DNA of 56,469 nucleotides from Bacteroidales bacterium (GTDB lineage: Bacteria > Bacteroidota > Bacteroidia > Bacteroidales > WCHB1-69), in NCBI GenBank assembly GCA_017395245.1, contig JAFPVR010000074.1:1-56469 (forward strand), read 5' to 3'. Numbering within the stretch: the first letter of the stretch is position 1; each line of letters opens with the position of its first letter. This document shows, piece after piece, positions 37,820 to 55,984 of the stretch. A model generated the notes under the pieces. It did no database searches. It was not told the origin of the DNA and was given only the letters and a program-made list of their open reading frames with translations. The position numbers were made by a program, and so were the translations under genes.

Positions 37820-38098
37820 ATGAGCCGTTCATTAAAAAAAGGACCGTATATCCACTACAAACTGGAGCAGCGCGTGATCGCTGCCCAGGAGTCCGGCAAG
37901 AAGTCCACTATCAAGACGTGGTCTCGCGCCTCCATGATCTCCCCCGACTTCGTGGGCCTCACCATCGCCGTGCACAACGGGAACAAATTCATCCCGGTCT
38001 ACGTCACGGAGAACATGGTCGGCCACAAACTCGGAGAGTTCGCCCCGACGCGCATCTTCCGCGGCCACGCCGGCCAGAAGGACAAGGGTTCCAAGTAA
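37820..38098 (+). CDS. rpsS: 30S ribosomal protein S19
   Basis: This 92-residue S19 has [19 protein letters not shown], the basic [24 protein letters not shown] segment and the C-terminal [18 protein letters not shown]. It forms a complex with S13 in the 30S head. In the usual S10 operon rplV, rpsC and rplP would follow; here the operon ends at this gene with a strong terminator. Confidence 0.98.
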
Positions 38099-43291: not shown

Positions 43292-43334
43292 TTGATGCGA
43301 ATCATAAAATTCCTGCGTATCGTATTATTTTTTG

Positions 43335-43342
43335 TATCTTTG
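43335..43342 (+). promoter_or_regulatory. Promoter (-7) of the structured RNA
   Basis: TATCTTTG is a perfect TAnnTTTG match and lies just before the first base-paired element (43346). No clear TTTG is at the -33 distance. Confidence 0.6.
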
Positions 43343-43345
43343 CAG

Positions 43346-43659
43346 CGTCAAGTGTCCGTGACCTCTTGACGGGGAAGCGGGCGGGCGACAGACATAAAAG
43401 GCGTTGAGTCAACGTCTTATCTGCGGCTTGTAGAATCTCGCAAATTCAACATTCTCCCGCACGGTAAGGCAATGTTCAATGCCCATTGGATTGTATATTC
43501 TCGGTATTGACACATTAAATGTGTTCGACCAAACGGATTTCCTCAATATCCGTTTAATATACAACAGCGTGGGCTTCGGCATTGCTTATCCTCGGGAGAT
43601 GGGCAATGCGAGAGCCTTACAAGCGGGATGAGCGATGGTTCAGATTCCCGCGCTTTTTT
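43346..43659 (+). ncRNA. Long structured non-coding RNA (novel or 6S-like)
   Basis: This stretch has no credible reading frame and many exact complementary arms. They include a 5' hairpin CGTCAAG/CTTGACG (43346-43352/43365-43371) and a hairpin CGTTGA/TCAACG (43402-43414). A long rod is built from CTCGC/GCGAG (43437-43441/43608-43612), CTCCCG/CGGGAG (43454-43459/43593-43598), GTAAGGCAATG/CATTGCTTAT (43464-43474/43580-43589), TGCCCA/TGGGC (43480-43485/43570-43574) and TTGTATATT/AATATACAA (43491-43499/43556-43564). The rod is capped by two hairpins, ACACATT/AAATGTGT and AAACGGAT/ATCCGTTT (43531-43538/43548-43555). A promoter precedes it and a terminator ends it. The rod of about 180 bases recalls 6S RNA (the Bacteroidales-1 family), but the two-hairpin cap and the 5' domain differ from what I would expect. 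tmRNA, RNase P and SRP RNA motifs are absent. Confidence 0.6.
43623..43659 (+). terminator. Terminator of the structured RNA
   Basis: The arms GCGGGA (43623-43628) and TCCCGC (43646-43651) enclose TGA/TCA as an inner extension and are followed by GCTTTTTT. Confidence 0.65.
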
Positions 43660-43751
43660 ATGTGGTTTAGTTGAGTAATTGTTGTGTCCGGAGTTGGGAA
43701 TCGCCGGAGGATGAGGATAATTGACTGTTTTTACAAGTGATTTAACGTTTT

Positions 43752-45017
43752 ATGAATGAACTATCCAAAGGAGCGAAAGTGACATTGTCGAACGGCAGTT
43801 TTGTGACCATCAAGAAAGAACTTGGACGCGGTGGTCAGGGAATTGTCTATTTGGTGGATTACAACGGCAAGGATATGGCGTTGAAATGGTATCTGAACGC
43901 TCCGGACAGCTGTTTATACAACAATCTCAACAACAATATTCTGAATGGAGCACCGAGTGATGCTTTTCTTTGGCCAAAGGCACTTGCCGAACGTCAACAA
44001 GGTAGTTTCGGATACCTTATGGATTTACGACCTGGCAACTATTTCGAGTTTGGAAACTTCTTGATGGCGAAAGTCAAGTTTGCCAGTTTCGACGCGATGC
44101 TGAACGCTGCCATGAAGATATGCAATGGCTTCATGATGCTTCACCGTTTCGGTTACAGCTATCAGGACTTGAACGATGGCAACTTCTTCATCGATCCGAA
44201 AACAGGAGACGTCCTCATCTGCGACAATGACAATGTGATGCCCCAGGGCGAGAAGTCAGGCATCATGGGTAAAGCCCGCTATATGGCACCCGAAGTGGTG
44301 GCCGGTGGCATTCCCGACAAGTACAGCGACCGCTATTCGTTGTCCGTCATCCTCTTCATGCTCTTCTATGTCAACCATCCGCTCGAAGGTGCAAAGGTTG
44401 TTGCCTGTCCCTGTATGACTGAGACTTACGAGAAGAAGTTTTACGGAAGTGAGGCGGTATTTATCTATAACCCCAACGACAAAAGCAACCTCCCTGTTCG
44501 CGGGATCCATCAAAATGTCATTCGCCGCTGGCCGGCTTTGCCTGCTATTCTGCGGAATACGTTCACTCGTGAGTTTAGCGAAGAAATGCTCCGAAATCCG
44601 CAGAAACGTATGCTTGAGCAGAATTGGGAGAAGTTGATTGCAACCCTGCGCGATAGCCTTGTTATCTGCCCCCATTGCAAAGGAGAAACCTTTATCGAAG
44701 AGGGCAAGAGCATGTGTATGAACTGTGGAAAGGATGTAGAAGTTCCTCTATCGCTTAAAATAGGCAATCGAAATGTCTTTCTAACAGGAGGTACCAAACT
44801 CTATATTGACCACGACAACAATGCCGATGTGTTGGTGTTAAAGGATGCAAAAGCAGGATTATTGCTCTTAAAGAATCTTTCATCGGATACTACATGGACG
44901 GCTGAAACTCCTAGCGGAAAGTTGAAAACAGTTGCACCTGGAGAGTGTGTGCCAGTGAAGGAGGGAATCAAAGTCTCTTTCAATCAAACGACCAAAGGAG
45001 AAATAATATCAAGATAA
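43752..45017 (+). CDS. TerY-P type Ser/Thr protein kinase with zinc ribbon
   Basis: This 421-residue cytosolic protein has a kinase domain over residues about 15-300. It shows a glycine loop GRGGQG at 25-30, ATP lysine Lys45, a catalytic loop YQDLNDGN at 137-144 (Asp139, Asn144) and the metal-binding Asp158 in DND instead of DFG, followed by APE at 179-181. After it come a zinc ribbon (CPHC 306-309, CMNC 322-325) and a C-terminal beta-rich domain (about 335-421), perhaps FHA-like. A kinase with a C-terminal zinc ribbon next to a vWA protein and a PP2C phosphatase is the TerY-P triad. It heads the gene run and probably phosphorylates the vWA protein or HxsA-system components; targets are unknown. 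Confidence 0.88.
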   Translation: MNELSKGAKVTLSNGSFVTIKKELGRGGQGIVYLVDYNGKDMALKWYLNAPDSCLYNNLNNNILNGAPSDAFLWPKALAERQQGSFGYLMDLRPGNYFEFGNFLMAKVKFASFDAMLNAAMKICNGFMMLHRFGYSYQDLNDGNFFIDPKTGDVLICDNDNVMPQGEKSGIMGKARYMAPEVVAGGIPDKYSDRYSLSVILFMLFYVNHPLEGAKVVACPCMTETYEKKFYGSEAVFIYNPNDKSNLPVRGIHQNVIRRWPALPAILRNTFTREFSEEMLRNPQKRMLEQNWEKLIATLRDSLVICPHCKGETFIEEGKSMCMNCGKDVEVPLSLKIGNRNVFLTGGTKLYIDHDNNADVLVLKDAKAGLLLLKNLSSDTTWTAETPSGKLKTVAPGECVPVKEGIKVSFNQTTKGEIISR

Positions 45018-45019
45018 CT

Positions 45020-45391
45020 ATGCCTGAAATTACTCCTTTAAGCGAAACTGCGTTTGTCACACTGGCGATGTGTGAAAAAACAAAGAAGCCCTATGGAATT
45101 ACCGTAGATAAGGGGGAATTTGGTTTGTATAAGATGGTGTGGTCTTTCAAAATCGATTATGAAAAGGCACAAAGAGAAGGGTATGATCGCATCAAGGTGT
45201 CTGGAGGAATTGTCGAAGATGCAAACTTCCCAGGGTGTCCTTATTGTGAATCTAAACACTGGTATAGTTGTAGTAATTGCCATACAATTATATGTTATCA
45301 TGGTCAAGGTCATGTCACTTGTCCAAGATGTGGTTTTGAAGGGGGAATAACCCAAGTTGAAAAGATTAATATTGAAGGAAGTGCATATTAG
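45020..45391 (+). CDS. Free-standing TerY-C-type zinc-binding protein
   Basis: This 123-residue protein starts two bases after the kinase stop. Its C-terminal half carries the metal-binding pattern CPYC...CSNC...C...CPRC (residues about 73-108, PGCPYCESKHWYSCSNCHTI and on), as in the TerY-C domain. That domain is usually fused to the end of TerY vWA proteins; here it is a separate gene placed just before the vWA gene. Its N-terminal part (FVTLAMCEKTKKPYGITVDK) is a domain often seen with TerY-C. It probably binds the vWA protein. Confidence 0.7.
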   Translation: MPEITPLSETAFVTLAMCEKTKKPYGITVDKGEFGLYKMVWSFKIDYEKAQREGYDRIKVSGGIVEDANFPGCPYCESKHWYSCSNCHTIICYHGQGHVTCPRCGFEGGITQVEKINIEGSAY

Positions 45392-45449
45392 TAGCATTGA
45401 AACTATATAGAAAAAAGAAATTTTAATAATAACGTAAAAACATATCATT

Positions 45450-46190
45450 ATGTCACTTTTAGACGAAACCGTAGAAATCCCGCGTCGTACAATGACGCTT
45501 TTCTTCATGATTGACACCTCCGGCAGCATGGCTGGCAGTAAGATTGGCGCCGTAAATGACGCCGTGGTCAATGTTCTTCCCATGTTGGAGGAAATTTCCG
45601 CAGAAAACCCCGATGCAGAAATCAAAGTGGCTGCATTGGAATTCTCCACCACCTGCCATTGGCTCTATAACGAACCCAAACCCGCCAATGAGTTTGTTTG
45701 GCAAGATGTTCAAGCATCAGCACTTACTTCTCTCGGTGCTGCTTGCAAAGAATTGTCAGGCAAGCTGTCCAGAAGTGGATTTATGAAATCCGCCAGCGGT
45801 TCTTTCGCGCCTGCTATCATATTGCTTTCTGACGGAGCTCCCACGGATGATTTTGAATCAGGACTTGCTGTGTTGAAAAACAACAATTGGTTCAAAGCCG
45901 CCATCAAGGTGGCAGTGGCCATCGGCGAAGATGCGGACAAAGAGGTGCTGGCACAGTTCACTGGGACTAACGAAGCAGTTTTCACTGTCCACAATATTGA
46001 AGCTCTGAAGCAAGTGATTCGTATTGTGGCCGTTACTTCCTCACAGATCGGCAGCAAGAGCAGTACGGCTGGCGACACCACCAAGCAGGAACAAGTGATC
46101 GCTGAAGTGAAGTCGGCGGTTGACAATATCGGCGGTGCCGAAGTGGCTTCCGCTCCATCTTCAACCGTTTCCTACGATGATTGGGATTAA
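45450..46190 (+). CDS. TerY-like von Willebrand factor A protein
   Basis: This 246-residue protein has a complete MIDAS site: DTSGS at 22-26, a threonine in the TSLGAA loop and the acidic loop LLSDGAPTDD. It is a metal-dependent protein-interaction domain of the TerY group. The C-terminal tail (about 200-246) is low-complexity and lacks the TerY-C zinc domain, which is encoded separately upstream. The stop lies 14 bases inside the PP2C gene. In TerY-P systems the vWA protein is the presumed scaffold or substrate of the kinase and phosphatase. Confidence 0.9.
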   Translation: MSLLDETVEIPRRTMTLFFMIDTSGSMAGSKIGAVNDAVVNVLPMLEEISAENPDAEIKVAALEFSTTCHWLYNEPKPANEFVWQDVQASALTSLGAACKELSGKLSRSGFMKSASGSFAPAIILLSDGAPTDDFESGLAVLKNNNWFKAAIKVAVAIGEDADKEVLAQFTGTNEAVFTVHNIEALKQVIRIVAVTSSQIGSKSSTAGDTTKQEQVIAEVKSAVDNIGGAEVASAPSSTVSYDDWD

Positions 46191-47250
46191 GTGCTTTAAC
46201 AGCCATTGTCAGGGAGAAAGCCACAAAGCAACGGGCAAACCCTGCCAAGACTTTTCGTTCAGTATCAAAACGGAAGGTTATGCTATCGCTATGGTCAGTG
46301 ATGGCCATGGCGGGGAGCGTTATTTTCGTAGTGATGTGGGATCGAAGATAGCAGTGGAAGTGGCTCACCGATGTTTAGTGGAGTTTGCAGAGGGCATTTC
46401 CCCGTCCTTGTTTGCTGATTTGCCGAGCACACCGGTTGGCATTGGCGACACCTATCATCCTGAACTACAGCGATTAGTGGAAGCAATTGTGGTAGGGTGG
46501 CGGAATGCCGTCTTGGAACATGCAACGGCAAATCCCTTAACCGAGACAGAACAACTCATATCAAATCCGAAAGATGATCATGAGTGGGAAAAGACGTATG
46601 GTTGCACGCTCATTGCGACACTCCTCACCCCTCAGTTTTGGCTGGCGTTTCAGATAGGCGACGGGAAATGTGTGGTCATTGACAAAGAGGGAGTCCCCTG
46701 CGAACCGATTCCATGGGATGACAAATGCTTTCTAAACAAAACCACCTCTATTTGCGACACGGATGCCGCAAGAGAGTTCCGATATTGCATTGGGGGCAAA
46801 GAGTCTTTCCCGATCGCAGTGTTTATGGGCAGCGATGGCATTGACGACTCGTTTGGCGAAGAAGAAAACCTGTACAATTTCTATATTCAATTGGCCAAAG
46901 GTTTTGCCAAGGATGGATATGAAGCCACCATTGCTGATTTGATAGCGACATTGCCCGTCCTCAGCAAGCGGGGAAGTCAAGATGACATGTCGGTAGCGGG
47001 GTGGTATGAGGACAACGCTTTATCACATATCTCGCAAAAAATGTCTGAATGGCAATTATCACGTTTAAAAGCCAAACAGGAATCACTTTCAACCAAAATA
47101 GCATCAGTTTGGCATCAAATTATTTTCAAAGGAACAACAAAAGAGACCAAACGTAGCATGTTTGATGAATTGATGCGCTATGGAAATGAAAAAAATGTCA
47201 TTAACAAAAGAATATTATTAATCAAAAATAAATCAGAAAATGGGAATTAA
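46177..47250 (+). CDS. PP2C-type Ser/Thr protein phosphatase
   Basis: The start was set at MIGIKCFNSHCQGESH (357 residues), which overlaps the vWA gene by 14 bases. Metal-binding motifs of PP2C are present: QDF near residue 24, SDGHGG at 41-46, GCTLIATLL, GSDGIDD and QDDMSVAGW. It is the third member of the TerY-P triad and should reverse the action of the kinase at 43752. The C-terminal 60 residues are helical and basic. It overlaps the next gene by 11 bases. Confidence 0.92.
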   Translation: MIGIKCFNSHCQGESHKATGKPCQDFSFSIKTEGYAIAMVSDGHGGERYFRSDVGSKIAVEVAHRCLVEFAEGISPSLFADLPSTPVGIGDTYHPELQRLVEAIVVGWRNAVLEHATANPLTETEQLISNPKDDHEWEKTYGCTLIATLLTPQFWLAFQIGDGKCVVIDKEGVPCEPIPWDDKCFLNKTTSICDTDAAREFRYCIGGKESFPIAVFMGSDGIDDSFGEEENLYNFYIQLAKGFAKDGYEATIADLIATLPVLSKRGSQDDMSVAGWYEDNALSHISQKMSEWQLSRLKAKQESLSTKIASVWHQIIFKGTTKETKRSMFDELMRYGNEKNVINKRILLIKNKSENGN

Positions 47251-48055
47251 CGAACTTGTGGAAAAAGGTGAAGGTTATTTGAAACAGAAGGACTTCACGA
47301 CTGCTATTGAATATTTTCAAGCCGCATTGCAATCGGAACAAGAAAATGAAAGAGCAAATGTTGGAATAGCACAAACATTGAAGTTTAAAGGGGAAACATT
47401 CAATGCAAAAAAACATGTGTTCAAGGCTTTGTCTGTAAATCCTAACAATCAGGATGCTTTATCACTAATGTTAGAATTAATAAATCAGACACCAGCGAAC
47501 GGAGAGGTTGCAACAGAATCTTTGGAAGACAATGTGGATAAAGATTTTAGAGTTGCAAATTGGGGAGATTCTAAAGAACTTGTGATGAAAAAAGAGGGCC
47601 GTCCAAACATCATTGACAACATGCCAGATCTTTACGCTTTTACGGACAATATAGCTGGTCTTCCTTGCACTGTTTTATATTGTTTTTCGGACAATAAATT
47701 AACCATGGCGAAATATTTATTTGATGTAAAACATTCAAATGATAATCTTTTTATTCAAGATTACCATGATTTAGTTGATTTAATGACCCAAAAATATGGA
47801 GCTCCAACTAGTGGAGGTAAAAACAATGCAGTATGGTTTAACGATTTGTTTAAAGATGATTTTAATCGTTGGGGATTAGCCATAGGTACTGGAGATTTAG
47901 CATTTGACAGTTCATGGGATTCTGATAACACAGAAATACTTCTCCTATTAAAAGGAGAAAATTATAACATTAATTTAGTGCTGCAATATGTTAGCAAACA
48001 TCTTTCTGAGCTACGTGAGCAACAATCTAACAAGAAAAAATTACTGGGATTATAG
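47240..48055 (+). CDS. TPR protein of the TerY-P/HxS cluster
   Basis: This 271-residue protein has two or three TPR units in residues 1-85 (LVEKGEGYLKQKDFTTAIEY, then ANVGIAQTLKFKGETFNAKK). A C-terminal domain of about 170 residues follows that I do not recognise (LYAFTDNIAGLPCTVLYCFS ... WFNDLFKDDFNRWGLAIGTG). No signal peptide is present. The base composition is markedly AT-rich compared with the housekeeping genes. It starts inside the phosphatase gene, so its translation is coupled; an adaptor role is inferred. Confidence 0.7.
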   Translation: MGINELVEKGEGYLKQKDFTTAIEYFQAALQSEQENERANVGIAQTLKFKGETFNAKKHVFKALSVNPNNQDALSLMLELINQTPANGEVATESLEDNVDKDFRVANWGDSKELVMKKEGRPNIIDNMPDLYAFTDNIAGLPCTVLYCFSDNKLTMAKYLFDVKHSNDNLFIQDYHDLVDLMTQKYGAPTSGGKNNAVWFNDLFKDDFNRWGLAIGTGDLAFDSSWDSDNTEILLLLKGENYNINLVLQYVSKHLSELREQQSNKKKLLGL

Positions 48056-48063
48056 AGTATTTA

Positions 48064-49248
48064 ATGGTGCCAACGCCCTTACATATTGCCCTAAAGAAAG
48101 CGGTTGACGACCTCGGAATGGATATTCTGAAGTCGCCAATGTTGCTCAATGTTTTGACCGATTACCACGCTTTTGACGTGCACGACCCCGTGTTGAAAGA
48201 GAAGAAGGTTGTCATCAAATCTTTGGTGGCGGAAAACTATTATGACATGATTTCAGAATGGCAGAAAAAAAATGATGCACATTGGGAAAGTAAGGACAGC
48301 GATTGGTTGAATAGATTCTGTAAGAAAACGAGTCTAAAAAGGACTGTCGTGGGGCCAATTGCAGATGCTATGAAAATAGCGATTGGTCTGAAAGAAGCAT
48401 CAAGAGATTTTTCAGACTTAAAAGGATTGTTCTCCTCAATCAAAATGGAGTATCTTGAAGCTCTTGAACAACTCATCCAAGTACATACAGACTTCTTAAA
48501 AATTAAGACCGCATATTATCCTCCAGAAGCAGAGACGGAGCTTTATTTGCTTGAAGGCAAGTTGATGATTTTAGCGAAGGATTTCAACAAGGCCAAATCA
48601 TGGATTGAAAATACTCGCCTGTCAATTATTCAGAAACATTCAACCCCTCCTCAAATACAAAAACGCAAACGCAGTCGTTTTGTCGCAGCTGTTTGGATTT
48701 CGGCAGTTGTATTCGGTTTGGCGGTATATATAGCAGCGGATAGGATTAGTTATTCCAAAAACAAACTCGCCATTGCCACATTTGAGAGCAATATCGCGAA
48801 CGGCGATGAAGCCCTGAAGAACAATGATCCTGAGACTGCGTTGTCTTTTTATATCGAAGCGGAGAAAAAATATACCTCTGGCTATCATCACAGAAAGTAC
48901 AAGAAAATAGCCTCCGACAAACAGGAAGAAGTAGCACGAAAAGTTGTTAAGGAATATATGTGGCAAATAACCAAAGCTTTACATGAGGGGAAGTGCTCAA
49001 CTGCAAAGGACTTGTATAATAATTTTCTTTCGACTGATTTCCCGGAGTGCATCGACAAGAAATCCGAAGCGGAAAAATTCGATAAAGATATCCATCAACG
49101 CGTCATCCAGATAAGAAATGATCTACTCTCCTCTATATCTAAAAATAAGGGGAAGGCCACTTCAGAAGAAAAGGCGACAATTGAAGATTTATTGTATTGT
49201 TATCCCGACGATTATTACCTGAATATGATAAAAGACAAAATAAAATGA
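48064..49248 (+). CDS. Single-pass membrane protein with TPR-like cytosolic/periplasmic parts
   Basis: In this 394-residue protein, residues 1-60 (PLHIALKKAVDDLGMDILKS and on) resemble an N-terminal helical domain common in Bacteroidales proteins. A basic KRKRSR stretch precedes one transmembrane helix at about 206-225 (FVAAVWISAVVFGLAVYIAA). The C-terminal part is helical and charged, with TPR-like spacing. Two domains on either side of the membrane would suit a link between the cytosolic phospho-module and exported HxsA. Its stop overlaps the hxsA start by four bases. Confidence 0.65.
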   Translation: MVPTPLHIALKKAVDDLGMDILKSPMLLNVLTDYHAFDVHDPVLKEKKVVIKSLVAENYYDMISEWQKKNDAHWESKDSDWLNRFCKKTSLKRTVVGPIADAMKIAIGLKEASRDFSDLKGLFSSIKMEYLEALEQLIQVHTDFLKIKTAYYPPEAETELYLLEGKLMILAKDFNKAKSWIENTRLSIIQKHSTPPQIQKRKRSRFVAAVWISAVVFGLAVYIAADRISYSKNKLAIATFESNIANGDEALKNNDPETALSFYIEAEKKYTSGYHHRKYKKIASDKQEEVARKVVKEYMWQITKALHEGKCSTAKDLYNNFLSTDFPECIDKKSEAEKFDKDIHQRVIQIRNDLLSSISKNKGKATSEEKATIEDLLYCYPDDYYLNMIKDKIK

Positions 49249-50135
49249 AACATAAGTCAAAAAAACTGATTCGCTCGTTGCTGTTGTCGGCAACGATGTC
49301 CCTATTGGGTCTCCATTCGGGAGCAGAAAATGAAGTCCGTATAGGGGGAGATGTGGAAGATGGGGATGCAAAACAGTTGGATGTGATGAAACAGCGGGTG
49401 TGGCATCATGTCTTGAAAGTGGGCAGTAATGGAAATATTACGGAAGTGAATAGCCATAGCTCTCATCGGTCACACAGTTCACACCGATCACATAGCTCTC
49501 ACCGTTCGAGTAGCCACGGTTCTCACTATTCGAGTCACAGCTCCCATTATTCAAGCAGTTCGGGCTATAGAAGTCCGTCCACATCATCTTCCTCCTCTTC
49601 TTCTTCCACACCTACAACTTCATTGTACTCCGCTCCTGCAAAGACATATAAAACGTATTCATTTGGGGATAGAACATTAAAGCGAGGCTTGTATGGTAAC
49701 GACGTGGATGAATTAGTCAGGAAGTTGAAAAACAATGGATACTTGCATGATAGTCACAGTGCTACCCAATCGGGCTATGCACTGTACGATGGAGAAGTGG
49801 AGCAAGCCGTGAAATATCTTCAAGAGGAACGAGGCGACAAAGTGACTGGTGTGTTCTCATCTTCCGAGTCCACCTCAATTAGCCCGACGAAACACCATCA
49901 TTTGGGCACACGAGATTTGAGAATAGGATACGAAGGGGATGATGTGTCCGAACTTATTACGCTGTTAACAAAAGCTGGATTTGCCCCTGATTCATCGAAA
50001 GTAAAAACAGGGCAGAAAGAGTATTCAGAAGCAGTGGCTGATGCAGTTCGAGTGTTTCAAGCGTTTACTGGATTGGAACCTACTGGTATTGCAAATCTTG
50101 AGACCATTAAAAAGCTGAAAACATATAAGAAATGA
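49245..50135 (+). CDS. hxsA: His-Xaa-Ser repeat protein HxsA
   Basis: This 296-residue protein was started at MKHKSKKLIRSLLLSATMSL to give a signal peptide. Ten His-Xaa-Ser triplets occur in residues 71-103 (HSS, HRS, HSS, HRS, HSS, HRS, HGS, HYS, HSS, HYS), followed by a serine-rich linker. Two C-terminal peptidoglycan-binding-like domains follow (RGLYGNDVDELVRKLKNNGY at about 147; RIGYEGDDVSELITLLTKAG at about 227). It is the presumed substrate of the radical SAM pair HxsB/HxsC, modified at the repeat and then exported to the envelope. This is family knowledge; the chemistry is unknown. Confidence 0.9.
   Translation: MKHKSKKLIRSLLLSATMSLLGLHSGAENEVRIGGDVEDGDAKQLDVMKQRVWHHVLKVGSNGNITEVNSHSSHRSHSSHRSHSSHRSSSHGSHYSSHSSHYSSSSGYRSPSTSSSSSSSSTPTTSLYSAPAKTYKTYSFGDRTLKRGLYGNDVDELVRKLKNNGYLHDSHSATQSGYALYDGEVEQAVKYLQEERGDKVTGVFSSSESTSISPTKHHHLGTRDLRIGYEGDDVSELITLLTKAGFAPDSSKVKTGQKEYSEAVADAVRVFQAFTGLEPTGIANLETIKKLKTYKK
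49452..49561 (+). repeat. HxS-encoding repeat tract in hxsA
   Basis: Nine-base units such as CATAGCTCT, CACAGTTCA and CACCGATCA code for the His-Xaa-Ser triplets. Synonymous variation between units shows that selection acts on the peptide pattern rather than on the DNA. Confidence 0.85.
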
Positions 50136-50419
50136 GAATTGAAGTTGACAGATCTATTTACAGTGACGAATGTATCAGCAAGTGTGTTTATTCTATGCTT
50201 GCCGAATTTGATATTGAACGAAATTTGTCAGACGGGATTGAAATAATTGAGATAGAATCTAGGGCTGGATTGTCGGATGAAATAACGCGAAGCAGGTTCC
50301 TTTCTTGTCTCAATGATTACAAAGTCCGGGATGTCGTTAGCAAAGAGACTCATGACATTCGTGTTATTCTGTATGCGAAGGCTTTTGCAGACAACGATGA
50401 TTATAATGAGAATGTATAA
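50132..50419 (+). CDS. hxsD: His-Xaa-Ser system protein HxsD
   Basis: This 95-residue protein overlaps the hxsA stop by four bases. It carries the family signature LLNDYxLRE in the form CLNDYKVRD at residues 59-67. It is a small soluble protein. By analogy with other radical SAM peptide systems it could be a recognition or chaperone subunit that presents HxsA; that role is inferred. Confidence 0.85.
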   Translation: MRIEVDRSIYSDECISKCVYSMLAEFDIERNLSDGIEIIEIESRAGLSDEITRSRFLSCLNDYKVRDVVSKETHDIRVILYAKAFADNDDYNENV

Positions 50420-50422
50420 GCA

Positions 50423-51820
50423 ATGAGATACTATTTGTTGCCATTTGGTTTTGAGAGAATCGGTGAGTGTGAAGTTCTTGTGAACGAACTTGGCGATATG
50501 GTTGTTGCACCTTTTGGCACAGCAGCTGCATTGTCTGCTCACGAAGAGATATCTACTGATTTGTATAAAACGTTGGTGGCAAATTATTTCCTCTCTGAAG
50601 AGCCAATTCCATCTACAATTGGTGTTTATTCATCACGTCTTCGAGCAAAAAAACATTTTATGGACGATCGTGCTGCTTTGCACATCTTTGTGCTGACACT
50701 GCAATGCAATCAGGGCTGCACCTACTGTCAGGCTTCATCTCGAGACAAACATGCGGAAAGTTGTACAATGAGCAAAGAGGTGTTAAAAAGAAGTGTGGAG
50801 TTCATGTTCCAGTCTCCAGCTCATGTTTTAACAATGGAGTTTCAAGGTGGGGAACCGAGTCTTCATCCCGAATTGGTTCGTTATGGTATAGAAGTGGCGG
50901 AAAATTTGCGCAAACAGCAAAGCAGAGATATCAGATATGTGTTATGCACGAACTGCGTGGATGTAAATGACGATTTGTTATCGTTGTGCAAGGAGTTTAA
51001 TGTACTGATTTCCACTTCGCTTGATGGTCCAGAATGGCTCCATAATAGAAATCGAGGAAAAGCGGACAGTTATCAAAAGGTTGTGGCTGGTATCAAAAAA
51101 GCTCGGGAAGTTTTGGGCAACAACGCCGTTTCTGCCCTGCAAACAACATCGGTTATGGCGTTGGATCACCCAATTGGAATTGTTGACGAATATGTCCGCA
51201 TGGGATTTCATGATATGTTTCTCCGTGCTTTAAATCCGTACGGACTGGCTGCAAACAATGATGATTGGTCACAATATACTGATCGTTTCGTTGAGTTCTA
51301 TAAAAAAGCATTTGAGCATATCCTCGAATTGAACAGACAGGGTATATCATTTGTGGAGGATTTTGCCACTATTATACTTCGGAAAATACTCACGCCTTTT
51401 GACTCTGGTTTTGTGGATTTACAGTCTCCTGCTGGAATTGTGAATTCTGTGCTTGTTTATAACTATGACGGCAATGTCTATACTTCTGACGAGGGAAGAA
51501 TGTTGGCAGAACATGGCGATTACACCTTTTGTCTCGGAAACGTATTCGACCAATATGAAGACATTGTTTATGGACCAAAAGTACAACAGCTGGCGCAGGT
51601 TTGGTCTGCCGAAACATTAGCTGGATGTTTTGATTGTGCTTGGAGGCCATATTGTGGTGCCGATCCTGTCAGGAATCACTCAACACAGGGAGATGTGTAT
51701 GGTTTCCGGCCCTCATCTTTGTTATGTCGTAAGAATAAAACTATTATCACATATTTGGTTTCGCTGATAATTGAACGGTATGATGAAGTGATGCCCATCT
51801 TCAAAAATTGGCTACAATGA
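50423..51820 (+). CDS. hxsB: Radical SAM maturase HxsB
   Basis: In this 465-residue enzyme the radical SAM cluster motif is CNQGCTYC (Cys95, Cys99, Cys102), followed by the SAM-binding GGEPSLHPEL region. The C-terminus holds a SPASM/twitch-like cysteine set (CFDCAWRPYCGADPVRNHST ... LLCRKNK), implying extra iron-sulfur clusters. The N-terminal 80 residues (YYLLPFGFERIGECEVLVNE) are typical of HxsB. Such enzymes modify peptides in the cytosol; HxsA is the expected substrate. It overlaps hxsC by four bases. Confidence 0.92.
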   Translation: MRYYLLPFGFERIGECEVLVNELGDMVVAPFGTAAALSAHEEISTDLYKTLVANYFLSEEPIPSTIGVYSSRLRAKKHFMDDRAALHIFVLTLQCNQGCTYCQASSRDKHAESCTMSKEVLKRSVEFMFQSPAHVLTMEFQGGEPSLHPELVRYGIEVAENLRKQQSRDIRYVLCTNCVDVNDDLLSLCKEFNVLISTSLDGPEWLHNRNRGKADSYQKVVAGIKKAREVLGNNAVSALQTTSVMALDHPIGIVDEYVRMGFHDMFLRALNPYGLAANNDDWSQYTDRFVEFYKKAFEHILELNRQGISFVEDFATIILRKILTPFDSGFVDLQSPAGIVNSVLVYNYDGNVYTSDEGRMLAEHGDYTFCLGNVFDQYEDIVYGPKVQQLAQVWSAETLAGCFDCAWRPYCGADPVRNHSTQGDVYGFRPSSLLCRKNKTIITYLVSLIIERYDEVMPIFKNWLQ

Positions 51821-52689
51821 GAGACTTTTTTGACATAAAATCCAACGACAACGCACTATTTGTCACAGAACAATGTAACAATCATTGTTTGATGTGCTGT
51901 CAACCGCCCCGAAATGTGGATGACATTGACAAATTGTATCAGAAAAACCAACACCTGATACGATCAGCACCCAAAGAATTGAAAGTCCTTGGAATTACTG
52001 GCGGTGAGCCGACACTTCTCGGCGAAAAACTTTTCGACCTGATTGCCGAAATTCGCCAATTTCTACCAGATACAGAATTACATCTCTTGAGTAATGGCCG
52101 GAGTTTTGCTAATGAAGCATTCGCTCAACGATTGGCTGAAGTGTCAGAGGGCATGATAGTCGTTGGCGTTCCGCTTCACAGTGATTACGAAAGGGATCAC
52201 GACAAAATCAGCGGCTGCAAAGGTGCGTTCGCTGAAACAATGTATGGTTTATACAATTTGGCCGATGCAGGTGTTCCCATAGAATTAAGAATTGTTGTCA
52301 ACAAATTGAATTTCATAAGATTACCCCATATTGCCCAATTCATCTTCAAGAATCTCCCATTTGTTTCTTGGACAGCCTTTATGGGTATGGAACAGACAGG
52401 GCTTGCCCATAAAAATCACAATGCAATATGGGTAGAGCCTGTAGATTATGTGGATTTGCTGGCACAAGCTGTGTTTTATCTTGGAAGTTGGGGATTGGAT
52501 GCCTGTATATACAACATTCCTTTATGTTTGTTGCCCGAAACAGTATGGCTACACGCCGAGAAAAGCATCTCGGATTGGAAAACGCAATACTCTGCACAAT
52601 GCGACAAGTGTTTGAAAAGACAACAATGTTGCGGTTTGTTCGGAACATCTTCCGAAGAATATGTTGGACTAAATCCTTTTATGTCATGA
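51817..52689 (+). CDS. hxsC: Radical SAM maturase HxsC
   Basis: This 290-residue protein starts at the ATG that overlaps the hxsB stop (ATGA); a TTG nine bases earlier is less likely. The cluster motif is CNNHCLMC (Cys20, Cys24, Cys27), followed by ITGGEPTLLGEKLF and LLSNGRSFANEAF, as in the radical SAM fold. The C-terminal cysteine group (CDKCLKRQQCCGLF) may bind another cluster. It is the paired partner of HxsB. It overlaps the next gene by four bases. Confidence 0.92.
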   Translation: MRDFFDIKSNDNALFVTEQCNNHCLMCCQPPRNVDDIDKLYQKNQHLIRSAPKELKVLGITGGEPTLLGEKLFDLIAEIRQFLPDTELHLLSNGRSFANEAFAQRLAEVSEGMIVVGVPLHSDYERDHDKISGCKGAFAETMYGLYNLADAGVPIELRIVVNKLNFIRLPHIAQFIFKNLPFVSWTAFMGMEQTGLAHKNHNAIWVEPVDYVDLLAQAVFYLGSWGLDACIYNIPLCLLPETVWLHAEKSISDWKTQYSAQCDKCLKRQQCCGLFGTSSEEYVGLNPFMS

Positions 52690-53591
52690 TTACTATCAAC
52701 ATACCATCTTCATACTGTGGCTCAGATGACAATATCACTCAATGTCTCACGCATCTTCCGCATCAAATAGGTCAGATACGTGGATTAGATTACTATGTGA
52801 CGTTAAAGCAAAGCAAGATAAAGAACCTTTATGAGCGACGCGCCATGCCTATTCCAGAACCGACACTCGCTGATATTCAAAGCGAGATACGTGCATTAGG
52901 TAAGATATACAAGGGAACACCTTCGGTGGAAGACATATTGTCCGAACGAAAAAATGCTTGGAGAGAGTTATATGCTTTCCACAACAACGTGGAGGACAAA
53001 TTAGAGGAGCAAGTTAACCTTCAATTCAATGACGAATATGTGACAACTTGCAAACAAATTGACAAGATTATTGCAGGACCAAAAGACATTGTGGAAAAAG
53101 AACTGAAATCTGAAATACAAAACATTAAAGTGCCATGCGATGTACAAGTTAAAGTCCATTATTCTCAAAAAGAGCAACTTGCGGTTTTAAATGCCGTTTT
53201 CCCTTGGAATATCCCTATTCCGACCATAAAGAAAGTTTCTCATAGTAGAGGTACAAGTGTTAAAGATAAATTGCAACGGGAGATTCACCAAGAAGAAACG
53301 GAATGTATCATAGGAATGGCCTTTCTTATGGGAGGGAAGGCTTTCGCCGCTTCGCCAAACATTAAGACGGCCGTTGTCGCTATATCCAAACAAACACAAT
53401 ACATGCTTGCTGTCCATTTGGGACGAGTGCCCTTTTGCCAAGAAATCCAGTATATGGACGTCCCCTCAAAACTCATCAATCTTTTTCCATTTTTGGCTGA
53501 CATAAGAACGGTGCGAAATGCTATGGTGATGTACCCAGTTTGGATCCGGGATTTTGAAGCCTTTGATGCAAGGTTGTCGTATGTGTTATGA
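52686..53591 (+). CDS. Uncharacterised protein coupled to hxsC
   Basis: This 301-residue protein was started at MITINIPSSYCGSDDNITQC because this gives a four-base overlap with hxsC. No signal peptide is present. Residues about 45-150 are highly charged and probably coiled-coil (PEPTLADIQSEIRALGKIYK ... VEDKLEEQVNLQFNDEYV). The C-terminal half has a patterned alpha/beta region (CIIGMAFLMGGKAFAASPNI, VRNAMVMYPVWIRDFEAFDA). I do not recognise the family. Its coupling makes it a likely extra component of this HxS variant. Confidence 0.65.
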   Translation: MITINIPSSYCGSDDNITQCLTHLPHQIGQIRGLDYYVTLKQSKIKNLYERRAMPIPEPTLADIQSEIRALGKIYKGTPSVEDILSERKNAWRELYAFHNNVEDKLEEQVNLQFNDEYVTTCKQIDKIIAGPKDIVEKELKSEIQNIKVPCDVQVKVHYSQKEQLAVLNAVFPWNIPIPTIKKVSHSRGTSVKDKLQREIHQEETECIIGMAFLMGGKAFAASPNIKTAVVAISKQTQYMLAVHLGRVPFCQEIQYMDVPSKLINLFPFLADIRTVRNAMVMYPVWIRDFEAFDARLSYVL

Positions 53592-53628
53592 TAAGAGATG
53601 AGAATGATAGTAGAAAATTTGAATTGAT

Positions 53629-54027
53629 ATGGCAAAGAAATCTAAAGATAACACTTCCTTGCACGAGGAGTTCCCGTTTGAGATAGTTGATGTCGCTTAT
53701 GCTATGCAAAGAAGTGTCAACCAAGACACTGTTGTGGACAAAGATGCTGAACTATCAAACAAGAATAAAAAAAACAAGATAATCGAAAAGGACATCCAAC
53801 AGAGAACTCAAAAGACTACAAATACAGTTACTGCGAAATATAAAGATACTTCAACCGAAACGGGTAAATCAGAAACATCTAGGAAAGAACTATTAATAGC
53901 ACTAATCGTTGTAATAGGGACTGTTTTATTAGCACTAATGATTGCATTTCCCGAAGAATTTTTTGCTATAATTATTGGTGTTCCGTTGGCTTATGCTTGG
54001 CTTTTTGGAGGGTCTAAAAGAAAATAA
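53629..54027 (+). CDS. Small membrane protein of the cluster
   Basis: This 132-residue protein has a charged, probably disordered N-terminal part (1-85, rich in Lys, Thr and Asn). Two adjacent hydrophobic segments follow at about 87-125 (LLIALIVVIGTVLLALMIAF, FFAIIIGVPLAYAWLFG), ending GGSKRK. It is likely anchored in the inner membrane with both ends cytosolic. No family is recognised. Confidence 0.65.
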   Translation: MAKKSKDNTSLHEEFPFEIVDVAYAMQRSVNQDTVVDKDAELSNKNKKNKIIEKDIQQRTQKTTNTVTAKYKDTSTETGKSETSRKELLIALIVVIGTVLLALMIAFPEEFFAIIIGVPLAYAWLFGGSKRK

Positions 54028-54051
54028 TAATTATCATTCAATCAATTGATT

Positions 54052-55146
54052 ATGAGTGCCTGTAAATACTGTGGACAAAAAGCCGGACTCTTTTCCGACT
54101 GTCATAAAGAATGCGAAGCGAAACATGCCCAAGGGCTTGTACGGTTACGTAAGCTCATGGACGATTTTTTCCGAAACCCAAACGGGGTCACAACCTTGCT
54201 CCAAGAGTATCAAGAGTTGGTTAAAGAACACTATCTGAACAGAGAGAATGTTGCGAATGTTGCGAGAGCGGCTATCGACCGATACGCTGATTCGCTGCAC
54301 AGACCATTCCCCGCGTCAATCTTGCAAATAGTCTCGCAGTTCCTGATCCAGTTCAAAGTGTCTTATTCCGATGCGAACCAATTAGGGGCAATAACGCGAT
54401 TGTCGCAGAAAATCATCAAGGGACATATCGCCGACTATTTCACTGAAGCTATTGACCTCGCCCAAATGCAAGAACGTATTCACAAAGTCATCACGACACT
54501 TCCCATTTTGCCTGACGACATCAACGAGACCTATCAGTATATGCTCAACAAGGCTGCCGACAACTTTTTGAAAGATGGTCAATTGACTGGACAAGAGGAA
54601 CATCTTTTGAACCAATACATGGCTGCGCTGAATATACAAGTCCAAAATCTGCCGGTTAAGTATCAGAACGGTAGCATCACCAAGATTGCACAAACCGCTA
54701 TCCTGAACAATGTTCAAGCAGGCAATTTACCCAGCCAACCTGTCATGTTGCCCATTGTTCTTGGAAAAGATGAAGCATTGTTGTGGACATATCCTGATGT
54801 TACCTTGTATCAAGAGAAAGTCGAAAAAGAGTTTGTGGGCCGTCATAATGGGGTCAACATTCGTGTGATCAAAGGAGTGACTTTGCGTACAGGGAAAAGC
54901 AAAGGGAAACCAGTAGAACATAGTTACATGAACAACATGGGGACAGGAGATCTTTATGTGACCAACAAACATCTGATTTTCCAATCTCCAACAAAAGCCG
55001 TCAAAGTGCCTTTCGCAAAACTGATCGGCATCACCCCCTATACAGATGGGATTGAGGTTCACAAAGAAGGCGATGCAAAACGGTTAGTGTTACAAGGCTT
55101 CGACAGCTGGTTTGTGATGTGTCTGCTCCAAATTGTCAACCAATAG
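54052..55146 (+). CDS. Zinc-ribbon/TerB-like/GRAM-like protein
   Basis: This 364-residue protein was started at the ATG of MSACKYCGQKAGLFSDCHKE; an upstream TTG is unlikely. A zinc-binding N-terminus (Cys4, Cys7, Cys17, Cys21) is followed by an all-helical region (about 25-225). Part of it (KDGQLTGQEEHLLNQYMAAL) resembles TerB-type acid-helix repeats. A C-terminal GRAM/PH-like domain follows (GDLYVTNKHLIFQSPTKAVK ... GIEVHKEGDAKRLVLQGFDS). TerB-like and PH-like domains fit a membrane-linked Ter stress module. Domain calls are by eye. Confidence 0.65.
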   Translation: MSACKYCGQKAGLFSDCHKECEAKHAQGLVRLRKLMDDFFRNPNGVTTLLQEYQELVKEHYLNRENVANVARAAIDRYADSLHRPFPASILQIVSQFLIQFKVSYSDANQLGAITRLSQKIIKGHIADYFTEAIDLAQMQERIHKVITTLPILPDDINETYQYMLNKAADNFLKDGQLTGQEEHLLNQYMAALNIQVQNLPVKYQNGSITKIAQTAILNNVQAGNLPSQPVMLPIVLGKDEALLWTYPDVTLYQEKVEKEFVGRHNGVNIRVIKGVTLRTGKSKGKPVEHSYMNNMGTGDLYVTNKHLIFQSPTKAVKVPFAKLIGITPYTDGIEVHKEGDAKRLVLQGFDSWFVMCLLQIVNQ

Positions 55147-55150
55147 GCTT

Positions 55151-55975
55151 ATGAACGCCGAGAGTCCTTTTTGTAAAATACTGATAATCATTAAAAAAAG
55201 CAGCTACATTTTGTTGTTGTTTGCGGTGATGCTTTCTTCATGTGCATCTCCTAATCAGCAACACCTGTCAACTGATTCGCAAAAACAACAAGAGAATAAT
55301 AGTGAAAAACGACAACGCTCAACTATTATCCACTATACCGGTTTCACCGTCTCCTATAACCCTGTAACGCGCCAACCCGATTGGTTATCCTATACTTTGA
55401 CAGCGGAGCAGGTTGAGCAGACAAAACATACCCCCAAAATTCCACGCTGTTTCATGCCAGACCCAAACCTGGACCTTCCGCAAGCCACTAACGAGGATTA
55501 CAGCGGCTCGGGGTGGGTGAGAGGACACATGGCACGACGGCAGGATATGAAATGGTCGGAGCAGGCGGTGAAAGAGAGCGACTACTTTACCAATATCTGC
55601 CCGCAGAACAAGGAGATGAACAACGGGGTGTGGCACCAGATCGAGAATCTGGCCCGAAAATTGGCCATCAGATACGATTCGGTGATGATTGTGTGCGGAC
55701 CGATATTCGTTTCCAATACTCCTGAAACGATAGGACCGAATCGAGTCTGGATTCCCGACAGCTTCTTCAAGGCCTTCCTCATCAAACACCAAGACGCCTA
55801 CCATACCATAGCCTTTATCTGCCCCAACACCCCCGATTCCGTAACCATCGCTGGAACAGCCCAATCAGTGAACGCTGTCGAATCTCTCACGGGTTATGAC
55901 TTCTTTGGTTTCTTGGACGATAGTGTGGAAGAAACAGTTGAAGATGAAGTTGAGGTCGGGCTTTGGGTGCGTTGA
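55151..55975 (+). CDS. DNA/RNA non-specific endonuclease lipoprotein
   Basis: This 274-residue protein starts at the ATG four bases after the previous stop. It has a lipoprotein signal (ILLLFAVMLSSC). The catalytic region carries RGHMARRQDM in place of the usual DRGHxxP (catalytic His kept, preceding Asp replaced by Val), and the metal-site segment FTNICPQNKEMNNGVWHQIE with its Asn. The C-terminus is acidic. It should act outside the inner membrane on nucleic acid. Tight spacing suggests it belongs to the same run, though the pairing could be incidental. Confidence 0.8.
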   Translation: MNAESPFCKILIIIKKSSYILLLFAVMLSSCASPNQQHLSTDSQKQQENNSEKRQRSTIIHYTGFTVSYNPVTRQPDWLSYTLTAEQVEQTKHTPKIPRCFMPDPNLDLPQATNEDYSGSGWVRGHMARRQDMKWSEQAVKESDYFTNICPQNKEMNNGVWHQIENLARKLAIRYDSVMIVCGPIFVSNTPETIGPNRVWIPDSFFKAFLIKHQDAYHTIAFICPNTPDSVTIAGTAQSVNAVESLTGYDFFGFLDDSVEETVEDEVEVGLWVR

Positions 55976-55984
55976 GTCTTGTGT

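Follow-up and report, generated by a model that had tools for sequence, protein, structure and literature searches.

HxsABCD, the His-x-Ser radical SAM (S-adenosylmethionine) system, was reportedly described by Haft and Basu in 2011; to our knowledge it has no assigned role, and no functional paper surfaced in the literature that we searched. Here, we analyze a 56,469-nucleotide stretch of a Bacteroidales genome (GenBank assembly GCA_017395245.1, contig JAFPVR010000074.1; this whole stretch is referred to as the window), in which Hxs genes stand in one run with a TerY-P phospho-signaling cassette consisting of a protein kinase, a TerY-C domain protein, a von Willebrand A (VWA) protein and a PP2C-type phosphatase. 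As expected for HxsABCD, hxsD, hxsB and hxsC of the window lie above curated cut-offs and a His-x-Ser repeat protein is present in the run. The differences are that hxsA comes first, encodes a protein of about 300 residues with two wall-binding stretches that falls under both HxsA models, and that TerY-P and a membrane protein, MEM, are added. A wall-binding HxsA is also found without TerY-P, e.g., on Hymenobacter, Adhaeribacter and Roseomonas plasmids.

HxsB and HxsC are mentioned, and the HxsABCD work is cited, in PMC9062424. TerY-P modules belong to type II and type III-A coiled-coil nuclease tandem (CoCoNuT) systems (PMC11090510), where, as in the window, VWA, PP2C and a zinc-ribbon kinase are attached to a larger system, in their case one of defense. 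The window differs from these modules in that TerY-C is a separate gene, in having extra recurring parts (the protein U3 and cargo proteins with a common N-terminal domain, the N-domain), and in its partner, which is an envelope radical SAM system, whereas theirs is a McrBC-type restriction system. The TerY-P of Gao et al. 2020 is antiphage (PMC7699616, PMC11090510), and TerY-P tested in P. aeruginosa is antiphage as well (PMC10889362). These systems share the enzyme trio with the window and are antiphage by experiment; they differ in that their kinases carry an OB-fold (PMC11090510). Conflict systems with GAP1-N2 in actinobacteria likewise combine a kinase (often with a zinc ribbon), PP2C and a stand-alone vWA protein; however, their partners are GTPase systems and not Hxs (PMC7159879). 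Zinc modules of the YprA helicase have been likened to TerY-C (PMC12458937). In the available text of a 2026 survey of bacteriophage exclusion (BREX) systems (PMC12839542), a term search returned neither PP2C nor radical SAM; vWA came up with MoxR systems alone. Among the literature matches listed, no paper matched both TerY-P and Hxs and none describes their pairing, and the original TerY-P or Hxs papers may hold a prior notice of it.

Results

The run consists of 14 genes on the forward strand (positions 43752-55975), leading from the TerY-P cassette through the Hxs cassette to a nuclease, in the order KIN, TerY-C, VWA, PP2C, TPR, MEM, hxsA, hxsD, hxsB, hxsC, U1, U2, U3 and NUC. With ATG starts as chosen, neighboring genes overlap by 14 (VWA/PP2C), 11 (PP2C/TPR) and 4 bases (MEM/hxsA, hxsA/hxsD, hxsB/hxsC and hxsC/U1), or are separated by gaps of 2 (KIN-TerY-C), 58 (TerY-C-VWA), 8 (TPR-MEM), 3 (hxsD-hxsB), 37 (U1-U2), 24 (U2-U3) and 4 bases (U3-NUC). 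A first-pass annotation of this DNA had given the same six overlap sizes, which the recomputed coordinates reproduce; the families that it named (kinase, TerY-C, VWA, PP2C, HxsD, HxsB and HxsC) all score above curated model cut-offs. It had closed the run with three unknown genes, and these are indeed present, but it had omitted a PF01223 nuclease with which the run continues. Since promoter- and terminator-like sites across the run were no more frequent than chance in a sequence scan, a single transcript is presumed from the spacing. The genome is a draft (97.6% complete, 3.25% contamination, 129 contigs); misassembly of the run is unlikely because it recurs in separate assemblies.

We define window-type Hxs as the gene order hxsA-D-B-C combined with a long wall-binding HxsA. 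HxsB was found in 3/104 genomes of the window's family, 15/393 genomes drawn from the order and 2/12 genomes in the family of G279; in a phylum draw it was found in 2/395 genomes, the window's own alone being above the cut-off. Six of the 15 order genomes (the window genome G000, G157, G279, G296, G321 and G469) have window-type Hxs, and the other nine, with a short HxsA and a different gene order, were excluded from this count. The kinase family (A1) occurs in 6/393 order genomes and 4/104 family genomes, as judged with an alignment in which five of six rows came from Hxs-linked kinases and with at most four candidates scored per genome in the order draws. Kinase and window-type Hxs coincide in three of the six kinase genomes of the order and in three of the four of the family. 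Without the window genome, two of five kinase genomes in the order draw have window-type Hxs (392 genomes, Fisher p = 0.0013; in one of the two, G469, kinase and Hxs are on separate contigs), and two of three in the family draw (103 genomes, p = 0.0006). The association of the kinase with any HxsB is weaker (p = 0.011 without the window genome).

Physical linkage in a conserved order was observed in five loci (the window, L004, L032, L035 and L036). In G469 a 3,754-base contig ending inside PP2C carries the kinase, and a 7,953-base contig ending 112 bases before MEM carries the Hxs genes; this is likely to be one broken locus, in which the two parts are linked. The stretch of L003 begins inside MEM. 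Three stretches with window-type Hxs (L029, L031 and L033) are without TerY-P, and the six kinase genomes do not include theirs. We read flanks of no more than 6-10 kb, often shortened by contig ends, so that pairs farther apart would escape. Within these flanks, TerY-P stands beside Hxs in none of the nine other Bacteroidales Hxs loci and in none of the 14 loci from the viral collection in which HxsB is clear (16 were returned; L079-L092). Of 402 plasmid records that matched HxsB, 16 were opened at the match, and TerY-P is missing from 15 of them. A coupling of Hxs and TerY-P as a general rule was thus rejected. HxsB was found in 2 of 50,697 phage records, and VWA in one plasmid record, the same Prevotella plasmid as L038. 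The exceptional plasmid is pMTS1 of Cupriavidus sp. P-10 (L062 12845-21384), where HxsABCD is followed, about 1.8 kb downstream, by a VWA-PP2C-kinase triad of a different type; this triad is unannotated in the record, has no bridge protein and may represent a second, independent pairing.

The two modules are joined by a hybrid protein. MEM (48064..49248) is composed of an N-domain of about 105 residues (48067..48393), which is common to helicase, FGE, FtsK-like, LRR and TPR proteins of TerY-P loci, and of one transmembrane segment, recognized by hydropathy, with a C-terminal region (48679..49245) that is predicted to lie outside the membrane and ends in Y-(W/Y)-L-(N/H)-x-I-x-x-K. From the basic stretch ahead of the transmembrane segment, the N-domain is expected inside the cell and the C-terminal region outside. 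MEM has no Pfam or NCBIfam match at E 0.01. The N-domain is N-terminal, or nearly so, in the FGE protein, the helicase, the FtsK-like, LRR and other proteins. It was detected in 23 proteins in 62 loci (some overlapping), and 21 of these proteins are within TerY-P or MEM-Hxs loci. The other two (L073 8909-10213 and L074 9822-11339) stand alone in genomes without the kinase, in loci that were fetched for the N-domain, and are possible loners or partners of other systems. Ten of 14 kinase loci contain the N-domain, the others being L039, L063 (cut in PP2C), L065 and L066. In the order draw, with up to 12 candidates scored per genome, it was found in 6/393 genomes, of which four have the kinase; this leaves 2/387 among the kinase-less genomes. 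The domain model already existed when three further kinase loci (L076, L077 and L108) were fetched, and all three contain the N-domain.

The transmembrane and C-terminal region gave eight matches, each just upstream of hxsA, in 8/10 window-type Hxs loci, and no match elsewhere among the 62 loci searched. Both halves of MEM are present in seven of these eight loci; the eighth, L029, has no N-domain, and in its genome (G157) the kinase is absent genome-wide. Thus, MEM physically links the two modules, its N-domain tracking TerY-P and its transmembrane and C-terminal region tracking Hxs. The 4-base overlap of MEM with hxsA is found in the window, L003, L004, L032 and L036. Behind hxsC of L004 (12267-18094), four more N-domain proteins follow one another, with LRR, TPR or unknown C-terminal parts; we regard this row as an expanded cargo set.

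The same front end occurs with other cargo. Of 14 kinase loci read, six have Hxs (G469 included), seven have other neighbors and one is a distant triad on a Methylomonas plasmid; L078 duplicates L077 and was left uncounted. In L077 the front end lies directly behind BrxC, PglX, PglZ and BrxL of a BREX system, with FGE and UvrD proteins downstream, and in L076 it lies one base behind a 1648-residue type IIG-like restriction enzyme; the TerY-C gene starts 1 base past the restriction-enzyme gene in L076, and 1 or 7 bases past brxL in L077. L064 has a 2302-residue DUF4011/MTES_1575 helicase (1255 bits with the PADLOC model PDC-S37 and 555 bits with Hhe). An FGE-domain protein and a UvrD helicase are the neighbors both on the Prevotella plasmid (L038) and in L108 (G069, a genome of the window's family), where the contig end cuts the helicase. 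The neighbors in L065 are LRR-TPR proteins; those in L066 are a MotB-like protein and an additional VWA. BREX, restriction and Hhe-like genes were observed in L064, L076 and L077 alone. U3 is present in L038, L064, L076 and L077, all without Hxs, and therefore belongs with the TerY-P front end. Consequently, TerY-P is a reusable front end whose neighbors are often defense genes. In G069 a gene for a RecD-like helicase, named by eye, lies between kinase and VWA (L108 3387-5180).

The phylogenetic trees show how the modules have been combined. TerY-P-bearing HxsB proteins and that of L003 form one group of moderate support (90/84), nested within window-type HxsB, the outer branches of which (L033, L031 and L029) are without TerY-P. 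The kinase is found in each of the six members of this group whose genome or locus is readable, and the group retains TerY-P down to about 62% HxsB identity. These observations are most simply explained by a single coupling followed by retention. A well supported split (96/99) divides the Hxs-linked kinases between two groups: those of L004, L032 and G469 fall with FGE-, restriction- and BREX-linked kinases, and those of the window, L035 and L036 with helicase- and LRR-linked kinases; placement of the long branches L039, L066 and L077 is unsure. Such a split across cargo types is expected under cargo exchange. For example, the window and the same-genus genome G010 (contig G010:C38) are 96% identical in DNA over 43711-47125 (the front end), 67.5% over 50627-52392 (hxsB/hxsC) and 85.6% over 54046-55983 (U3-NUC), the middle block 47125-54046 being replaced; a second, window-like MEM N-domain (84%) remains behind hxsC in G010. 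The difference between front end (96%) and Hxs block (about 67%) indicates that blocks exchange. In G010, a transposase-like gene and an AbiH-like gene are inserted before TPR-U3-NUC (L075 452-2499); PADLOC gave no match for the AbiH-like gene.

The motifs in the kinase, VWA, PP2C, HxsB and HxsC given below are those that we take to be catalytic or cluster motifs. KIN (43752..45017; PF00069, 50.3 bits, cut-off 31.7) is a Ser/Thr kinase with K45, the catalytic loop YQDLNDGN, CDND and, in a zinc ribbon C-terminal to the kinase domain, two CxxC pairs; it is 62-98% identical to five other sequences. The TerY-C metal-binding domain protein (45020..45391; PF15616, 32.9 bits, cut-off 28.4) has CxxC pairs that are mostly retained across eight aligned sequences, and the position of its gene differs between loci. 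The TerY-like VWA (45450..46190; PF00092, 40.8 bits, cut-off 23.8) contains DTSGSM as the metal ion-dependent adhesion site (MIDAS) and an invariant DDW close to the C-terminus, and ten other sequences are 63-100% identical to it. The PP2C-type phosphatase (46177..47250; PF13672, 115.4 bits, cut-off 24) has DGHGG, GDG and SDG motifs; next comes the TPR adaptor (47240..48055), with Pfam TPR matches and an uncharacterized C-terminal part. A zinc-ribbon kinase with catalytic residues, a VWA with MIDAS and an adjoining PP2C are all present, as expected of TerY-P. PADLOC gave weak partial PD-T4-6 and mad6 matches for the kinase and nothing more, and no match for VWA or PP2C, the presence of a TerY-P model in PADLOC 2.0.0 not having been checked; no BREX, restriction-modification or Hhe core gene was matched among the 7/14 window proteins scanned. 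U3 (54052..55146) has a CxxC...H...C N-terminus and, at its C-terminus, weak GRAM/PH-like Pfam matches, with nothing stronger.

The hxsA-like gene (49245..50135) encodes a protein with a signal-peptide-like N-terminus, His-x-Ser repeats and two peptidoglycan-binding stretches (PF01471, 64.8 bits). It contains 12 H-x-S motifs, compared with a mean of 3.4 and a maximum of 9 in 2000 shuffles, and its repeat core is invariant across 13 aligned sequences; the name HxsA follows from these motifs, this core and the gene position, not from curated models. It is followed by hxsD (50132..50419; TIGR03976, 67.2 bits, cut-off 50) and two radical SAM maturase genes, hxsB (50423..51820; TIGR03978, 538.4 bits, cut-off 370) and hxsC (51817..52689; TIGR03977, 346.4 bits, cut-off 267.9), both encoding CxxxCxxC. 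The HxsB cluster cysteines are intact in 12 sequences, five of them from loci without TerY-P, and HxsB matches its family over the full length both with and without TerY-P; the HxsC cysteines were examined in the window alone. Assignment of HxsB and HxsC to viperin (pVip) was rejected, as they reach 30-43 bits over part of the PADLOC model, far under their Hxs scores.

The last gene, NUC (55151..55975; PF01223, 162.6 bits, cut-off 23), encodes a predicted lipoprotein DNA/RNA non-specific endonuclease, with VRGH in place of DRGH, presumably the nuclease site motif. In 20 genomes that had been selected by their HxsB or kinase there are 25 PF01223 genes, 8 of them at these loci. Such nucleases also stand beside Hxs without TerY-P (L025, L029, L031 and L092) and beside TerY-P without Hxs (L064). 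In seven other copies covering the DRGH site, four have DRGH and the others SRGH (L029), DKGH (L064) and QRGH (L092); the window and G010 copies show ARRQD where most copies show APAGD. Next to hxsC of Methylobacter (L042), on its downstream side, is a thermonuclease gene, so that Hxs may more generally have secreted nucleases as neighbors.

Two more genes complete the run. U1 (52686..53591) is poorly conserved; its relatives are in L004, where the protein has an FtsK gamma domain, and in L029, L030 and L032. U2 (53629..54027) is, by hydropathy, a small membrane protein with no Pfam family above the cut-off. In G010 an Ion_trans channel gene (L035 4668-5429) precedes the kinase at a distance of 27 bases, and in L032 (5475-6230) one follows U1 at a distance of 8 bases; in L031 a short open reading frame after hxsC (11573-11800) has a channel-like start by eye and was not reported by tblastn with the channel. 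The channel was dropped as a system part, since these loci hold only 2 of the 15 channel genes that 11 genomes contain. Upstream of the kinase, 386 bases (43329-43714) form a noncoding repeat that matches the window genome six further times (in five places), with 76-80% identity. The G469 kinase has partial copies of the repeat upstream of it, and L024 has a weak copy; it is a dispersed repeat and was ruled out as a locus-specific feature. An Rfam search of the upstream gap gave one match, with E 0.46, under the gathering score. Elsewhere in the window, at 37820-38098, the S10 ribosomal operon, whose genes were named by eye, is broken after rpsS, and the L22 gene is on another contig (G000:C114 38025-38330) with a non-ribosomal gene before it; this break is either a real rearrangement or an assembly join.

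Discussion

We propose, with a probability of roughly 0.5, that the run is a composite system, best accounted for as a phospho-switched envelope effector that is probably defensive. The first-pass annotation had proposed such a composite, and this is borne out in that TerY-P and Hxs recur together above chance and a hybrid protein joins both. It had expected the idea to fail if the two modules almost never co-occurred; within Bacteroidales they do co-occur (p = 0.0013 and 0.0006), whereas outside the window-type clade Hxs stands without TerY-P in the stretches read, with 0 of 9 other Bacteroidales loci and 1 of 16 opened plasmid records having a triad, the latter of a different type. Its suggestion of defense agrees with the TerY-P half, which elsewhere adjoins BREX, a restriction enzyme and an Hhe-like helicase; immunity of the whole is what we infer from these neighbors. 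Taken together, the pairing suggests an unrecognized immune or stress system acting at the cell surface.

A possible mechanism is as follows. The cytosolic TerY-P switch (VWA, kinase, PP2C, TerY-C and U3) would serve as the reusable front end, and cargo proteins would attach to it through the common N-domain. VWA, kinase and PP2C may set the phosphorylation of the N-domain, or of a partner reading it. MEM would keep its N-domain in the cytosol, cross the membrane once and meet HxsA with its C-terminal region, while HxsB and HxsC would modify the His-x-Ser repeats of the wall-binding HxsA. Tripping the switch would alter MEM through phosphorylation or dephosphorylation, so that modified HxsA is released or activated in the envelope, the putative signal thus running from the cytosol outward; the surface nuclease NUC may often act alongside HxsA. 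The likeliest purpose would be to block or punish the entry of phage or DNA at the envelope, or, alternatively, to act on the envelope itself. More tentatively, and somewhat against the odds, the loci could represent a modular immune platform with one phospho-switch, a shared docking domain and interchangeable effectors, i.e., BREX, restriction enzymes, helicase-nucleases and, via MEM, a wall-bound His-x-Ser protein modified by radical SAM enzymes.

Other explanations have to be weighed. Two independent modules might simply lie side by side in a defense or variable island, as one could expect from the kinase family in seven non-Hxs loci, window-type Hxs alone in L029, L031 and L033, the middle block exchanged between the window and G010, and the bridgeless triad of pMTS1; however, the 4-base MEM-hxsA overlap in five loci, the hybrid bridge protein, the HxsB group keeping TerY-P to about 62% identity and the co-occurrence statistics make this unlikely. 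A response to metal or envelope stress, in which TerY-C, zinc ribbons and the His-rich wall protein would sense or buffer metal, is a rather poor candidate: TerY-P has been proposed as a metal-sensing switch (PMC11090510), and three zinc-ribbon-like proteins (KIN, TerY-C and U3) accompany the His-rich repeat, but in sister loci the partners of this kinase family are BREX, a restriction enzyme and an Hhe-like helicase and, by eye, no metal-transport gene is found among the clusters recurring in Hxs loci.

The first-pass annotation had favored direct control by kinase and phosphatase of HxsB/HxsC maturation or of HxsA export. The maturases are in the same gene run and would be obvious control points; yet the HxsB cysteines and full-length match are unchanged with or without TerY-P, and the front end is also found where no maturase is seen in the locus (L064 and L065), and we consider such control improbable. 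The feature that does change with TerY-P is the MEM N-domain, and MEM is therefore a likelier control point than the maturases. Secreted peptides are frequent substrates of radical SAM maturases, and HxsA could in principle be a bacteriocin-like antagonistic peptide whose release is timed by TerY-P, with the neighboring nuclease as a second weapon. This is highly improbable, given that HxsA has peptidoglycan-binding domains and no evident leader/core split and that, by eye, no exporter or immunity gene is found among the clusters recurring in TerY-P-Hxs loci.

Several observations weigh against a phospho-switched composite effector. Both HxsA models score under their cut-offs (TIGR03979, 17.7 against 121.65; NF038296, 24 against 48), although the hxsA call of the first-pass annotation agrees with the position, H-x-S motifs and conserved repeat core. 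The loci L029, L031 and L033 indicate that TerY-P is an added layer that Hxs does not need. TerY-C was not found in L036, the LRR-TPR cargo of L065 and the cargo of L066 are not evidently defensive, and the N-domain gave no match in the kinase genomes G448 and G312 or in loci L065, L066 and L039. The association of N-domain and kinase in the order draw (p = 1e-5 without G000) is not independent, because the search alignment contained rows from all four kinase genomes in which the N-domain was found; the frequency among kinase-less genomes (2/387) and the three of three later-fetched kinase loci are cleaner evidence. Conservation is uneven, with 62-98% identity for the kinase versus 24-30% for MEM, and kinase and HxsB identities over six loci correlate weakly (rho 0.43, p 0.11), which fits exchange and not strict co-evolution. 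The valine at the first DRGH position in NUC of the window and of G010 (L075 4459-5298) makes activity uncertain and may mark an altered nuclease. All statistics are based on small numbers, in which same-genus or same-family genomes are not independent, kinship is uncorrected and many genomes are drafts.

If the phospho-switched effector is real, the N-domain is the shared domain that may allow a TerY-P switch to choose effectors, and this makes the target of TerY-P phosphorylation testable. HxsABCD would then be an envelope-acting immune effector, and it gains a testable role, as it occupies the place that BREX, a restriction enzyme or an Hhe-like helicase takes in sister loci.

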